A program made the translations under genes and the position numbers. Shown one piece after another: positions 49,496-62,474 of a stretch of DNA of 64,000 nt. Source of the DNA: Variovorax sp. V93 (GTDB lineage: Bacteria > Pseudomonadota > Gammaproteobacteria > Burkholderiales > Burkholderiaceae_C); the NCBI RefSeq assembly GCF_041154485.1, contig NZ_AP028669.1, forward strand, positions 806,001-870,000, given 5' to 3'. The notes beneath the pieces are model-generated. The model was not told where the DNA came from. It did not search any database and saw only the letters and a program-made list of their open reading frames with translations. Each line of letters opens with the position of its first letter. Within the stretch, counting starts at the first letter, position 1.

Positions 49496-51895
49496 ATGTC
49501 CCGATTCCAAGTGAAGAAAGTCGCCGTGCTCGGCGCCGGCGTGATGGGCGCGCAGATCGCGGCCCACCTCGTCAACGTGCGCGTGCCCGTGGTGCTTTTC
49601 GACCTGGCCGCAAAGGAAGGCCCGAAGAACGGCATCGTCTCGCGCGCCATCGACAACCTCAAGAAGCTCAAGCCCGCGCCGCTCGGCGACGTGGCCGACG
49701 CGGTGCTCATCGAGCAGGCCAACTACGAAGACGACCTCGCCAAGCTCGGCGAGTGCGACCTCGTCATCGAAGCCATTGCCGAGCGCATGGATTGGAAGCT
49801 CGATCTGTACAGGAAGATCGCACCGCATGTCGCCAAGCATTCGATCCTGGCCTCCAACACTTCGGGCCTGTCGATCACCAAGCTCAGCGAGGCGCTGCCT
49901 GAAGCGCTGAAGCCGCGCTTCTGCGGCATTCACTTCTTCAACCCGCCGCGCTACATGTTCCTGGTGGAGCTGATCAACACGCCCACCACCGAGCCGCAGG
50001 TGCTCGACGATCTCGAGGCTTTTGTGACCAGCACGCTCGGCAAGGGCGTGGTGCGCGCGCACGACACGCCCAACTTCATTGCCAACCGCGTCGGCATCGC
50101 CGGCATGCTGGCCACGCTGAAGGAAGTCGAGAAGTTCGGCCTGACGCCCGACGTGGTGGACGACCTCACCGGCAAGAAGCTGGGCCGCGCGAGCTCGGGC
50201 ACCTTCCGCACCGCCGACGTGGTGGGCCTGGACACCATGGCGCACGTCGTGAAGACGCTGCAGGACAACCTCAACGCCGAGACCGATCCGTTCTATGCCA
50301 ACTTCTCGACGCCGCCGGTGCTCGCCAAGCTGCTCGAACTCGGCAACCTGGGCCAGAAGACCAAGGCCGGCTTCTTCAAGAAGGTCGGCCGCGACATCCT
50401 GCGCTTCGACCTCCAGAGCGGCGAGTACGTGCCCGCCGGCGCCAAGGCCGACGAGGTGTATGGCCGCATGCTCAAGAAGCCCGCGGGCGAACGCCTGAAG
50501 CTCTTGCGCGAGAGCGAAGGGCCGCAGGGGCAGTTCCTCTGGGCCATCCTGCGCGACGGCTTCCACTACGCCGCGGTGCACCTGGCCGACATCGCCGAGA
50601 GCGCGCGCGACATCGACTTTGCGATGCGCTGGGGCTTCGGCATGAAGCAGGGCCCGTTCGAGCTCTGGCAGGAAGCCGGCTGGGCGCAGGTCGCCAAGTG
50701 GGTGCAGGAAGATATCGACGCCGGCAAGGCGCTGAGCACGGTGCCGCTGCCCAAGTGGGTGTTCGAAGGCCCGGTGGCCGAGGCCGGTGGCGTGCACACG
50801 CCCGAAGGCTCGTGGAGCGCATCGCAGAACAAGTTCATTCCGCAGCGCAAGCTGCCGGTACACGGGCGCCAGCTGTTCCCCGAAAGCGTGCTCGGCGCGA
50901 ACGCGGCGGATGCCAACACGGCCGGCACCACCATCAGCGACGAAGGCGATGTGCGCGTGTGGACGCTCGACGGCGAAGTGCTGATCGCGAGCATCCATTC
51001 GAAGATGCATGCGATCAGCCCCGACGTGGCCGAGGCGCTGGGCGCCGCAGTCGACCTGGCCGAAGCCGAATACAAGGGCCTCGTGATCTGGTCGCCCGAT
51101 GAGATGTTCTCGGTCGGCGCCGACCTGCAGGCGATGCTGCCGGCCTTCGTGGTCGCGGGCATCGGTGCGGTGGAGGGCGCGGAAGAAGAGCTGCAGAACG
51201 TGATGCTCAAGATCCGCTACGCGAGCGTGCCGGTGATCTCGGCCGTGCGCGGCATGGCGCTGGGCGGCGGCTGCGAGCTGGCCATCCATTCGGCCAGGCG
51301 CGTTGCCGCGATGGAGAGCTACATCGGCCTCGTCGAAGTGGGCGTGGGCCTGATCCCCGGCGCCGGGGGCCTGACCTACATCGCACGCCGCGCGGCCGAG
51401 AACGCCGCGGCCTCGACGGGCACCGACCTGCTGCCGTTCCTGACCGAAGGCTTCACGGCCGCCGCGATGGCCAAGGTGGGCACCGGCGCGCTCGATTCGA
51501 AGAAGCTGGGCTATCTGCTCGACAGCGACGTGATCGTGCCGAACAAGGACGAGCTGCTCTACGTGGCGCTGCAGCAGGCGAAGGCCATGGCCGATGCCGG
51601 CTACCGCCCGCCACTGCGCCGCAGCTTCCGAGTGGCCGGCCGCAGCGGCGCCGCGACGATCAAGGGCCAGCTCGTGAACATGCGCGACGGCGGCTTCATC
51701 AGCGCGCACGATTTCCACATCGCGAGCCTGATCGCGCACGTGGTGACCGGCGGCGACGTGGACGCGGGCTCGCTCGTGACCGAGGAATACCTGATGGCAC
51801 TGGAACGCAAGGCGTTCTGCTCGCTCATCGTGCATCCCAAGACGCAGGAGCGGATCATGGGGATGCTGAGCACGGGGAAGCCGGTGCGCAACTGA
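49496..51895 (+). CDS. FadN-type 3-hydroxyacyl-CoA dehydrogenase / enoyl-CoA hydratase
   Basis: 799 residues. Domain order is dehydrogenase first, crotonase last: VAVLGAGVMGAQIAAHLVNV (NAD site, about 8-27), catalytic His in FCGIHFFNPPRYMFL (about 144), and hydratase-type RGMALGGGCELAIHSARR and IGLVEVGVGLIPGAGGL at about 585-625. This order and length match Bacillus FadN rather than E. coli FadB, where the hydratase comes first. With the dehydrogenase upstream and the thiolase downstream it completes a beta-oxidation cycle. The thiolase is separated from it by the repeat-flanked DUF559 gene. Confidence 0.93.
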   Translation: MSRFQVKKVAVLGAGVMGAQIAAHLVNVRVPVVLFDLAAKEGPKNGIVSRAIDNLKKLKPAPLGDVADAVLIEQANYEDDLAKLGECDLVIEAIAERMDWKLDLYRKIAPHVAKHSILASNTSGLSITKLSEALPEALKPRFCGIHFFNPPRYMFLVELINTPTTEPQVLDDLEAFVTSTLGKGVVRAHDTPNFIANRVGIAGMLATLKEVEKFGLTPDVVDDLTGKKLGRASSGTFRTADVVGLDTMAHVVKTLQDNLNAETDPFYANFSTPPVLAKLLELGNLGQKTKAGFFKKVGRDILRFDLQSGEYVPAGAKADEVYGRMLKKPAGERLKLLRESEGPQGQFLWAILRDGFHYAAVHLADIAESARDIDFAMRWGFGMKQGPFELWQEAGWAQVAKWVQEDIDAGKALSTVPLPKWVFEGPVAEAGGVHTPEGSWSASQNKFIPQRKLPVHGRQLFPESVLGANAADANTAGTTISDEGDVRVWTLDGEVLIASIHSKMHAISPDVAEALGAAVDLAEAEYKGLVIWSPDEMFSVGADLQAMLPAFVVAGIGAVEGAEEELQNVMLKIRYASVPVISAVRGMALGGGCELAIHSARRVAAMESYIGLVEVGVGLIPGAGGLTYIARRAAENAAASTGTDLLPFLTEGFTAAAMAKVGTGALDSKKLGYLLDSDVIVPNKDELLYVALQQAKAMADAGYRPPLRRSFRVAGRSGAATIKGQLVNMRDGGFISAHDFHIASLIAHVVTGGDVDAGSLVTEEYLMALERKAFCSLIVHPKTQERIMGMLSTGKPVRN

Positions 51896-51904
51896 CCTGC
51901 ATTT

Positions 51905-51940
51905 CTCCTTCCCCCTCCGGGGGAAGGCAGGGATGGGGGC
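51905..51940 (+). repeat. Palindromic repeat, left copy flanking the DUF559 gene
   Basis: 36 bases starting ctccttccccctccggggga and ending gggatgggggc, beginning 9 bases after the FadN-type stop. It contains its own hairpin (CTTCCCCC, 3-base loop, GGGGGAAG). The reverse complement recurs at 52316-52351 with 35 of 36 identical bases. Related copies lie at 62374 and 62439. Confidence 0.92.
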
Positions 51941-51958
51941 GACCTCCAACCAAGCACG

Positions 51959-52378
51959 ATGCGAAACCAGTCCACGCCCCACGCACGCGCAAACGCGCAG
52001 GTGCTTCGCCGCGAGATGACCGATTCGGAGCGAAAGCTCTGGGGCGGACTGCGCGCTGAGCAGCTGGGTGTGAAATTTAGGCGCCAGCATCCGCTGGGCA
52101 ACTACGTCGCGGATTTCGCGTGCCTTGCACCCAAGCTGATCGTCGAACTCGACGGATCGCAGCATCAGGTGCAGCAAGGCTACGACGCGCGACGTGACGC
52201 ATTCTTCCGCGCGCAGGGTTTCGATGTGCTGCGCTTTGCATCGAACGATCCGTTCACCAATCTTGATGGGGTTCGCCAGGCCATTGCCAATCGGCTTGCC
52301 GAGTTGATGCCGCCGGCCCCCATCCCAGCCTTCCCCCGGAGGGGGAAGGAGCAAGAAAATCCAGGAGCTTCTTCATGA
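51959..52378 (+). CDS. DUF559 endonuclease-fold protein
   Basis: 139 residues, DUF559 (restriction-endonuclease-like, related to Vsr repair nucleases). MTDSERKLWGGLRAEQLGVK and FRRQHPLGNYVADFACLAPK precede the probable active-site strand LIVELDGSQHQ; DAFFRAQGFDVLRFASND completes the fold. The last 22 or so residues (PAPIPAFPRRGKE and on) are translated from the right-hand palindromic repeat, so the gene ends within the repeat and its stop overlaps the thiolase start as ATGA. Codon use is visibly less GC-rich than its neighbours, which suggests later arrival. No DNA target is known. Confidence 0.85.
   Translation: MRNQSTPHARANAQVLRREMTDSERKLWGGLRAEQLGVKFRRQHPLGNYVADFACLAPKLIVELDGSQHQVQQGYDARRDAFFRAQGFDVLRFASNDPFTNLDGVRQAIANRLAELMPPAPIPAFPRRGKEQENPGASS
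52316..52351 (-). repeat. Palindromic repeat, right copy flanking the DUF559 gene
   Basis: Inverted copy of 51905-51940, 35 of 36 bases identical, lying 23 bases before the thiolase ATG. It is read through as the C-terminal tail of the DUF559 protein. Confidence 0.92.
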
Positions 52379-53577
52379 GCAGCAAACAAGTCCAAGACGC
52401 CTACATCGTCTCCGCCACCCGCACCCCCATCGGCAAGTCGCATCGCGGCTACTTCCGCAACTACCGCCCCGACGACCTGCTCGCGACCACGCTCAAGGCC
52501 GCACTCGCCGCCGTGCCCGGCCTCGATCCCAAGGCCATCGAGGACATCATCTGTGGCTGCGCGATTCCCGAATCACAGCAGGGCCTGAACGTGGCGCGCA
52601 TCGGCGCGGTGCTGGCGGGCCTGCCGACCAGCATCGGCGGCATCACCGTGAACCGCTTCTGCGCCTCGGGCCTGTCGGCCGTGCAGATGGCAGCGGACCG
52701 CATCCGCGTGGGCGAGGCCGACGTGATGATCGCGGCCGGCGTCGAAAGCATGAGCATGGTGCCGATGATGGGCAACTCGCCCTCGCTGTCGCCCTCGATC
52801 TTCGAGCGCGAGGGCGACGTGGGCATTGCCTACGGCATGGGCCTTACGGCCGAAAAGGTCGCGCAGCAGTGGAAGGTGAGCCGCGAGGCGCAGGACGCGT
52901 TCGCGCTCGCCTCGCACCAGAAGGCCCTGGCCGCGCAGAAGGCCGGCAAGTTTGCCGACGAGATCACACCCATCGAAGTGACCGACCGCACGCCGGACCT
53001 GGAAACCGGCGAATCGATTGCCAAGACGCGCACCGTGAATCTCGACGAAGGCGCGCGTCCCGACACCAGCCTCGAAGGCCTGGCCAAGCTGCGCACCGTG
53101 TTCGCCGCCCGCGGCACGGTCACGGCCGGCAACAGCTCGCAGACCTCCGACGGCGCGGGCGCGCTGATCCTCGCGAGCGAAAAGGCGGTGAAGCAGTACG
53201 GCCTCACGCCGCTCGCGCGTTTCGTGAGCTTTGCCAGCAAGGGCGTGCCGCCGCACATCATGGGCATCGGCCCGATCGAGGCCATTCCGGCCGCGTTGCG
53301 CTATGCGGGGCTCAGGCACGAGGACATCGATTGGTTCGAGCTCAACGAAGCCTTCGCCGCGCAGTCGCTCGCCGTGATCGACACGCTGGGGCTCGACCCG
53401 AGCAAGGTCAACCCGATGGGCGGCGCGATCGCCCTGGGCCATCCGCTCGGCGCGACCGGCGCAATCCGTGCGGCCACGGTGGTGCATGCGCTGCGGCGCG
53501 AGAACCTGAAGTACGGCATGGTCACGATGTGCGTGGGCATGGGGCAGGGCGCCGCGGGAATTTTCGAACGCGTCTGA
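52375..53577 (+). CDS. Acetyl-CoA C-acyltransferase (thiolase, FadA-type)
   Basis: 400 residues, normal thiolase length; it cleaves 3-ketoacyl-CoA with CoA to end each beta-oxidation turn. The nucleophilic Cys is in TVNRFCASGLSAVQM (about residue 97), the His in AIALGHPLGATGAI (about 357), and the second Cys in MVTMCVGMGQGAA near the C-terminus. Its start overlaps the DUF559 stop (ATGA), so its translation now depends partly on the inserted gene. An ccaggag ribosome site also precedes the ATG. Confidence 0.95.
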   Translation: MSSKQVQDAYIVSATRTPIGKSHRGYFRNYRPDDLLATTLKAALAAVPGLDPKAIEDIICGCAIPESQQGLNVARIGAVLAGLPTSIGGITVNRFCASGLSAVQMAADRIRVGEADVMIAAGVESMSMVPMMGNSPSLSPSIFEREGDVGIAYGMGLTAEKVAQQWKVSREAQDAFALASHQKALAAQKAGKFADEITPIEVTDRTPDLETGESIAKTRTVNLDEGARPDTSLEGLAKLRTVFAARGTVTAGNSSQTSDGAGALILASEKAVKQYGLTPLARFVSFASKGVPPHIMGIGPIEAIPAALRYAGLRHEDIDWFELNEAFAAQSLAVIDTLGLDPSKVNPMGGAIALGHPLGATGAIRAATVVHALRRENLKYGMVTMCVGMGQGAAGIFERV

Positions 53578-62373: not shown

Positions 62374-62409
62374 CTCCTTCCCCCTCTGGGGGAAGGTTGG
62401 GATGGGGGC
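62374..62409 (+). repeat. Palindromic repeat (DUF559 type), left copy without a gene
   Basis: 36 bases, 33 identical to the copy at 51905-51940. It starts 8 bases after the dehydrogenase stop and contains its own CTTCCCCC...GGGGGAAG hairpin. The inverted partner is at 62439-62474 with only a 29-base spacer. Confidence 0.9.
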
Positions 62410-62438: not shown

Positions 62439-62474
62439 GCCCCCACCCCAGCCTTCCCCCAGCGGGGGAGGGAG
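62439..62474 (-). repeat. Palindromic repeat (DUF559 type), right copy without a gene
   Basis: Inverted relative of 62374-62409, with 31 of 36 bases identical to the copy at 51905-51940. It abuts the amidase stop codon exactly. Together with its partner it fills the convergent gap and could form one large hairpin that stops transcription from both sides. Confidence 0.88.

Follow-up and report, generated by a model that had tools for sequence, protein, structure and literature searches.

Why does a gene for a small nuclease lie between two inverted copies of one repeat, wedged between a fadN-type and a fadA-type gene? The locus belongs to a stretch of 64,000 nucleotides from Variovorax sp. V93 (contig NZ_AP028669.1, positions 806,001 to 870,000; called the window for simplicity and numbered from its first letter), and an earlier note on this DNA had described it as a DUF559 gene enclosed by 36-bp inverted repeats. 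The description held: the arms (51905-51940 and 52316-52351, 36 nt each) are inverted and 35/36 identical, and a 32-nt core of the repeat recurs in 44 genome copies at up to 3 mismatches, compared with 0 for the reversed control. The placement of the unit between the FadN-type gene and the thiolase, the translation of residues near the protein's end from the right repeat and the overlap of the DUF559 stop codon (TGA, 52376-52378) with the thiolase ATG were likewise borne out, as was a base composition unlike that of the neighbours (G+C of 0.63 in the cassette, 0.67 and 0.68 in the neighbour genes). The junction comprises the following features:

51896..52374, strand not applicable: exchanged cassette, all DNA from the fadN stop to the fadA start, delimited by the identity drop versus genome G004 and by empty junctions in relatives
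51905..51940, + strand: left alpha repeat, composed of a CCTTCCCCC arm, a loop, a GGGGGAAGG arm, a 3-nt loop and the mirror third strand GGATGGGGG
51959..52378, + strand: DUF559 / YcjD-like PD-(D/E)XK nuclease gene, 139 aa, assigned by Pfam, PDB 3hrl and predicted fold
52316..52351, - strand: right alpha repeat in inverted orientation, read into the protein close to its end
49496..51895, + strand: fadN-type 3-hydroxyacyl-CoA dehydrogenase gene, left flank of the junction
52375..53577, + strand: fadA-type thiolase gene, right flank of the junction

The repeats, which the earlier note had called palindromic with a hairpin of their own, are not anonymous palindromes. Each consists of a 9-bp pyrimidine-purine hairpin, then 3 nt, then a tail rich in purines and mirror-symmetric to the purine arm, and both score 9/9 in the stem and 9/9 in the mirror (T permitted opposite A). 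Judged from their letters, they share the architecture of the published intrastrand triplex motifs (TM/BoxC), which Holder et al. (2015) tied to genome instability (PMC4666352, available in part); the window's repeat, called A-type here, agrees with them in its stem, its 3-nt loop and its mirror third strand. The printed TM consensus CCCTCNCCC..GGGNGAGGG..GGGNGAGGG is fitted by a second, B-type repeat of sister genomes and not by the A-type repeat, whose stem letters differ. A hairpin in each repeat, as the earlier note had it, was predicted, though not clearly more stable than shuffled versions of the same G+C-rich letters (z -1.1 and -1.4). The third strand was assessed on hairpins picked by stem alone, with tails swapped between loci as control: a third strand of at least 8/9 was present in 89/148 hairpins (60%) compared with 1050/2960 swapped tails (35%) for a loop of up to 4, and in 120/148 compared with 1452/2960 tails from other loci for a long loop.

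Repeats of this class frame DUF559 genes far beyond the window. We compiled a first set of 110 DUF559 loci, every one of them taken from among the high-scoring matches, from about 95 of the 125 DUF559-bearing genomes in a set of 396 Pseudomonadota genomes. A triplex-type repeat was found within 230 bp of the DUF559 domain in 101 of them (on both sides in 54) with loop 2 of up to 20, and in 71 (both sides in 42) with the stricter loop 2 of up to 4, while outlying segments of the same contigs gave 3/220 under either loop setting and shuffled segments 0/220. Left and right flanks matched each other as inverted repeats in 66/110 loci versus 46/550 swapped pairs. In a second set, for which E. coli YcjD served as query and the top 80 of 278 loci were taken, a triplex-type repeat lay near the gene in 67/80 and 69/80 loci (controls 1/149 and 2/149), and the range extended to Gastranaerophilales and Methylomirabilota (taxa as labelled). 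Its Enterobacteriaceae-type loci carried the repeat in 26 of 32 cases, on both sides in 1 only. Locus L234, noted in passing, is an Enterobacteriaceae-type DUF559 locus on a contig labelled Chryseobacterium, probably from a mislabelled or contaminated assembly.

The earlier note had proposed looking for empty junctions in relatives, and these were abundant. DUF559 was matched strongly (E at most 1e-20) in 52 of 101 genomes of the genus. All 52 genes occupy the fadN-fadA junction: A-type units resembling the window's make up 34 (in that of G029 the gene is shortened) and B-type units 18; in the latter the repeat is different and the protein 44-52% identical to A-type. Of the other 44 junctions retrieved, 33 were empty (<30 bp; a subset of 23 measured 10-22 bp), ten contained a scar, a deleted unit or a different insert and one was unreadable; five genomes yielded no junction. 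The same junction carries a DUF559 gene in three further genera of the family. On a flanking-gene tree of 61 loci, with deleted units and the scar scored with their type, the junction state changes at least 19 times, and several well-supported sister pairs differ. Exchange at the site is also seen within the species. Between our genome and G004 the median identity was 1.00 over 136 segments of 100 bp (13.5 kb), and the only segments below 0.85 were five at 51900-52400 (0.72-0.80), with flanks near identical up to the cassette edges. Measured as a whole, the cassette is 0.765 identical to that of G004 (flanks 0.986); its closest counterpart is that of G021, another genome of the genus (0.952, flanks 0.941). 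A tree of 17 A-type proteins places the window's protein with those of the three other genera and of G029 (support 0.98). The earlier note had inferred a mobile or self-spreading unit of gene and repeats, comparable to pairs of repetitive extragenic palindromic (REP) elements and REP-associated tyrosine transposases (RAYT), with a nuclease-fold protein in the transposase's place: the link between repeat and gene and the empty sites support that idea well. Within the genus, however, the unit does not turn up at new places, all 52 strong copies sitting at one junction, where the cassette is exchanged.

Two side observations concern the same site. In a 128-bp junction (G082, L068) the left half of one B hairpin continues, by eye, into the other hairpin's outer half and the gene is gone; the hairpins appear fused, as though joined at their loops. 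A different palindromic element of 114-133 bp, alike by eye, occupies the junction in seven genomes, so that the site draws more than one kind of insert:

Junctions with the 114-133 bp palindromic element: G049, G013, G016, G076, G054, G028 and G011 (L069, L072, L076, L089, L314, L316 and L324)

Both unit types run their gene into a repeat. The right repeat is translated in 32/34 A units and the left repeat is read as an Arg-rich N-terminus in 17/18 B units by automatic frame search, counts that are approximate, as 2 of 10 A examples checked sat in the wrong frame. Because the right repeat is read in two different frames among the A homologues, it seems to be the DNA rather than the peptide that is conserved.

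The statistical association of repeats with DUF559 that the earlier note had suggested checking was found at two scales. Within the genus, at least five A-type repeats were present in 47/52 DUF559-bearing genomes compared with 8/49 others, and at least five B-type repeats in 29/52 compared with 8/49; this association is partly phylogenetic, because a clade of empty genomes carries almost no repeats. Inside the unit-bearing clade, A repeats still differed (median 33.5 in 26 genomes versus 6 in 11, p 9e-4). In the phylum set, where 76 genomes contain a strict B-like motif, DUF559 (E at most 1e-15) was found in 60/76 motif-bearing and 65/320 other genomes (odds ratio 14.7). The Y1 transposase family Y1_Tnp was unlinked to the motif in these genomes (38/76 versus 135/320, p 0.25). 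Vsr occurred in 31/76 motif-bearing and 76/320 other genomes and had no effect inside DUF559-bearing genomes (p 0.47); that of DUF559 persisted in Vsr-positive as in Vsr-negative genomes. A general nuclease effect represented by Vsr was weak and not independent of DUF559. Median repeat numbers were 34.5 (A) and 4 (B) in genomes with A units, and 21.5 (A) and 10.5 (B) in those with B units (p 1.4e-4 for the fraction), which fits a cognate relation of unit and repeat plus lasting relics of earlier units, not a strict one. In genomes with several DUF559 genes, a search for private repeats gave a mixed result (mean 21.6/26 for own pairs and 20.1/26 for cross pairs, the latter being the best of three comparisons).

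Repeats of our genome also occur as dispersed doublets. The genome has 42 dispersed places; at 26 of the 28 that were read the repeats form inverted doublets, and these are heterotypic, pairing an alpha (..GGGGGAAGG..GGGATGGGGG) with a beta-like repeat (..GGGGGAGGG..GGGGTGGGGG) in inverted orientation, whereas the cassette carries an alpha repeat at both ends. By eye, the strands within the doublet repeats vary in concert. Holder et al. reported, in the available part of their paper, that the five E. coli doublets invariably consist of a type A and a type B motif (PMC4666352), a likeness in the inverted pairing of two types. One doublet (C1:192.9k, L211) is polymorphic, being present in our genome and absent from G004 of the same species (L206). 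The window itself contains a dispersed doublet:

62376..62408, + strand: alpha repeat of a dispersed heterotypic doublet
62440..62472, - strand: its partner repeat in beta position, inverted

The association reaches E. coli K-12. In MG1655, ycjD is the DUF559 gene (1351407-1351760 of NC_000913.3; the stretch 1351205-1351760 is our L122); a perfect triplex motif, the one that Holder et al. number 9, lies about 170 bp downstream of it, with two decayed copies in between by eye. The gene is strain-variable: a survey of 5426 E. coli genomes found at least 80% of the stretch in 3333, and in two strains without ycjD (L123, L124) an efflux operon occupies its place, in line with eefRABCD being found in place of ycjD in the available part of a 2026 paper (PMC12817139). 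In six Enterobacteriaceae loci the stop codon lies, by eye, in the hairpin loop, the gene ending within the repeat. A single YcjD site shared by all Enterobacteriaceae was ruled out, as the 32 loci fall into three flank clusters and two singletons.

What kind of protein is encoded? The frame at 51959-52378 is a DUF559 member (PF04480, E 2.6e-36; 124.2 bits versus a curated cut-off of 20.6), the single match to the family in the whole genome (6.74 Mb), and matches PDB 3hrl (E 8e-23). A catalytic-type core (D52/E63/D65/H69) is conserved. The predicted fold best matched its own family (3hrl) and next the homing endonuclease I-Bth0305I and Vsr, so that the model points to the EDxHD homing-endonuclease catalytic-domain fold; by sequence the relation to EDxHD homing endonucleases is borderline (profile E 0.011). 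Likeness to I-Bth0305I (structure 3r3p, PMC3943268) lies in the predicted fold. As far as the available part of that paper describes I-Bth0305I, the DUF559 protein differs in being free-standing, 139 aa long and devoid of a long DNA-binding extension, and its gene in being framed by repeats that are also scattered genome-wide. The fold predicted to be shared with Vsr agrees with a YcjD-Vsr profile relationship published in 2005 (PMC1189080, seen in part). Unlike Vsr, which is unlinked to the repeats inside DUF559-bearing genomes, the protein has no PF03852 (Vsr) match listed at E 0.001. A PADLOC search for anti-phage defence gave no significant match, the sole listing being DpdF (E 0.056). Weak DUF559-like matches also occur within open frames of about 900-2300 aa (e.g. 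G091:C3:146384), perhaps as domains fused to others.

We slightly favour the reading that the unit is a selfish or semi-domesticated homing-like nuclease cassette, exchangeable at one site and, in addition, partner to the dispersed triplex doublets. In this view two intrastrand-triplex-type repeats enclose a small endonuclease of Vsr/homing fold, DUF559. This enzyme would act on DNA, probably single-stranded or folded, either at the repeats themselves or where the junction is empty; the break would be repaired by host recombination from a cassette-bearing copy, and the cassette would thereby be gained, replaced or lost at one fixed site, an exchange pattern compatible, by analogy, with homing, in which the empty allele is cut and the element copies itself. 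In trans, the nuclease may serve as partner of the non-autonomous doublets, as RAYTs do for REPINs. That the DUF559 protein itself drives exchange or spread is what we infer from these patterns.

Several observations weigh against this reading. A nearby repeat is missing in 9/110 and 11-13/80 DUF559 loci; 5/52 DUF559-bearing genomes of the genus have fewer than five A repeats, and 16/76 motif-bearing genomes of the phylum have repeats without DUF559. G085 (L064 / L213) has 60 A repeats, no detected DUF559 and an empty junction. B repeats inside the unit-bearing clade did not differ significantly (p 0.11), B-unit genomes are still richer in A than in B repeats, and the Fisher tests of association ignore phylogeny. 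Strict co-divergence of nuclease and repeat was rejected, the phylum-wide correlation being weak (rho 0.10, with 12/999 permutations as high). At the junction, the 19 state changes fall below all 1000 label shuffles (mean 27.6, minimum 20), so that phylogenetic signal partly remains. Cassette and flank identity correlate (rho 0.46 over 561 A-unit pairs) and just 241/2666 informative triplets are discordant: exchange overlies mostly shared descent. The cassette swap could also result from plain homologous recombination. No clean target duplication was seen at the one polymorphic doublet examined between our genome and G004, and a stable triplex in vivo was not seen by Holder et al., in the part of their paper available (PMC4666352).

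Four other explanations were considered. DUF559 might be a Vsr-like nuclease that repairs or processes hairpin and triplex structures, with repeats that spread by other means and adjoin the gene for regulation or by selection; repeat-rich genomes would then retain DUF559 because it limits damage. The Vsr-like predicted fold, the presence-absence association and the Caulobacter DUF559 protein VsrA, required for the DNA damage response when a cytosine methyltransferase is absent (PMC12907096, seen in part), suit this explanation. It leaves the matching repeats that bracket the gene and the exchange of the cassette at a single site unexplained, and the repeat-rich genome G085 has no detected DUF559; we regard it as unlikely, and still as the strongest competitor. 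Somewhat less probable again is that junction and repeats are recombination hot spots and DUF559 a passenger or defence-type gene under balancing selection, whose diverse alleles ordinary homologous recombination would shuffle. Defence loci typically turn over their alleles, and the different palindromic element in the same junction and the cassette-flank correlation point the same way. The adjacency of repeats and DUF559 in both locus sets at unrelated sites, the lack of a significant PADLOC match and the near identity of our genome and G004 up to the cassette edges argue against it.

Repeats placed at gene ends, with the stop codon inside the hairpin loop in several Enterobacteriaceae loci, might instead be regulatory or terminator elements of the gene, reused elsewhere as an ordinary intergenic signal. 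Given repeats on both sides in 54/110 loci, inverted matching flanks in 66/110 and dispersed inverted doublets, we consider this improbable; moreover, neither promoter nor terminator activity is cited for triplex motifs in the available part of Holder et al. (PMC4666352). That a RAYT spreads the repeats while DUF559 is incidental is disfavoured most strongly: one Y1_Tnp gene is present in our genome, and the Y1_Tnp-motif association is absent.

How does the system proposed here, a nuclease cassette partnered with triplex doublets, relate to known ones? A repeat-flanked gene, inverted doublets and scattered presence are familiar traits of REP/RAYT systems. All three recur here, the doublets being dispersed (for REPIN/RAYT see PMC3116915, PMC8266576 and PMC3733652). 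In contrast, the enzyme here is a PD-(D/E)XK nuclease (PF04480) and not a Y1 HUH transposase, the repeat is of triplex type, with the GTAG or CGTC foot tag absent by eye, and the cassette is swapped at a fixed site. In the account of TM/BoxC/PIT motifs by Holder et al., mobility activities were never seen near intrastrand triplex motifs (PMC4666352, available part), whereas we find a DUF559 gene as a frequent neighbour, including ycjD of MG1655. No published link between DUF559 and such repeats was found in the open-licence literature, judged from listings, and the words nuclease, DUF559, RAYT and triplex are all absent from a 2025 REP survey (PMC12306157).

What would be new is a specific nuclease family as partner of triplex repeats, whose spread lacked a known cause. 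Tentatively, and with a little less than even confidence, we propose that DUF559/YcjD nucleases are the missing drivers of TM/BoxC repeats, which would spread themselves in a REP-like manner in E. coli, Pseudomonadota and beyond by means of a homing/Vsr-fold nuclease acting on triplex-capable DNA, its own gene, bracketed by repeats, travelling as a cassette that gene conversion swaps at fixed sites. The partnership makes repeat spread directly testable in E. coli K-12, with YcjD and BoxC. If true, it would represent a repeat-driving system based on a restriction/repair fold rather than on a transposase, and would hint at the role of a very common protein of unknown function.
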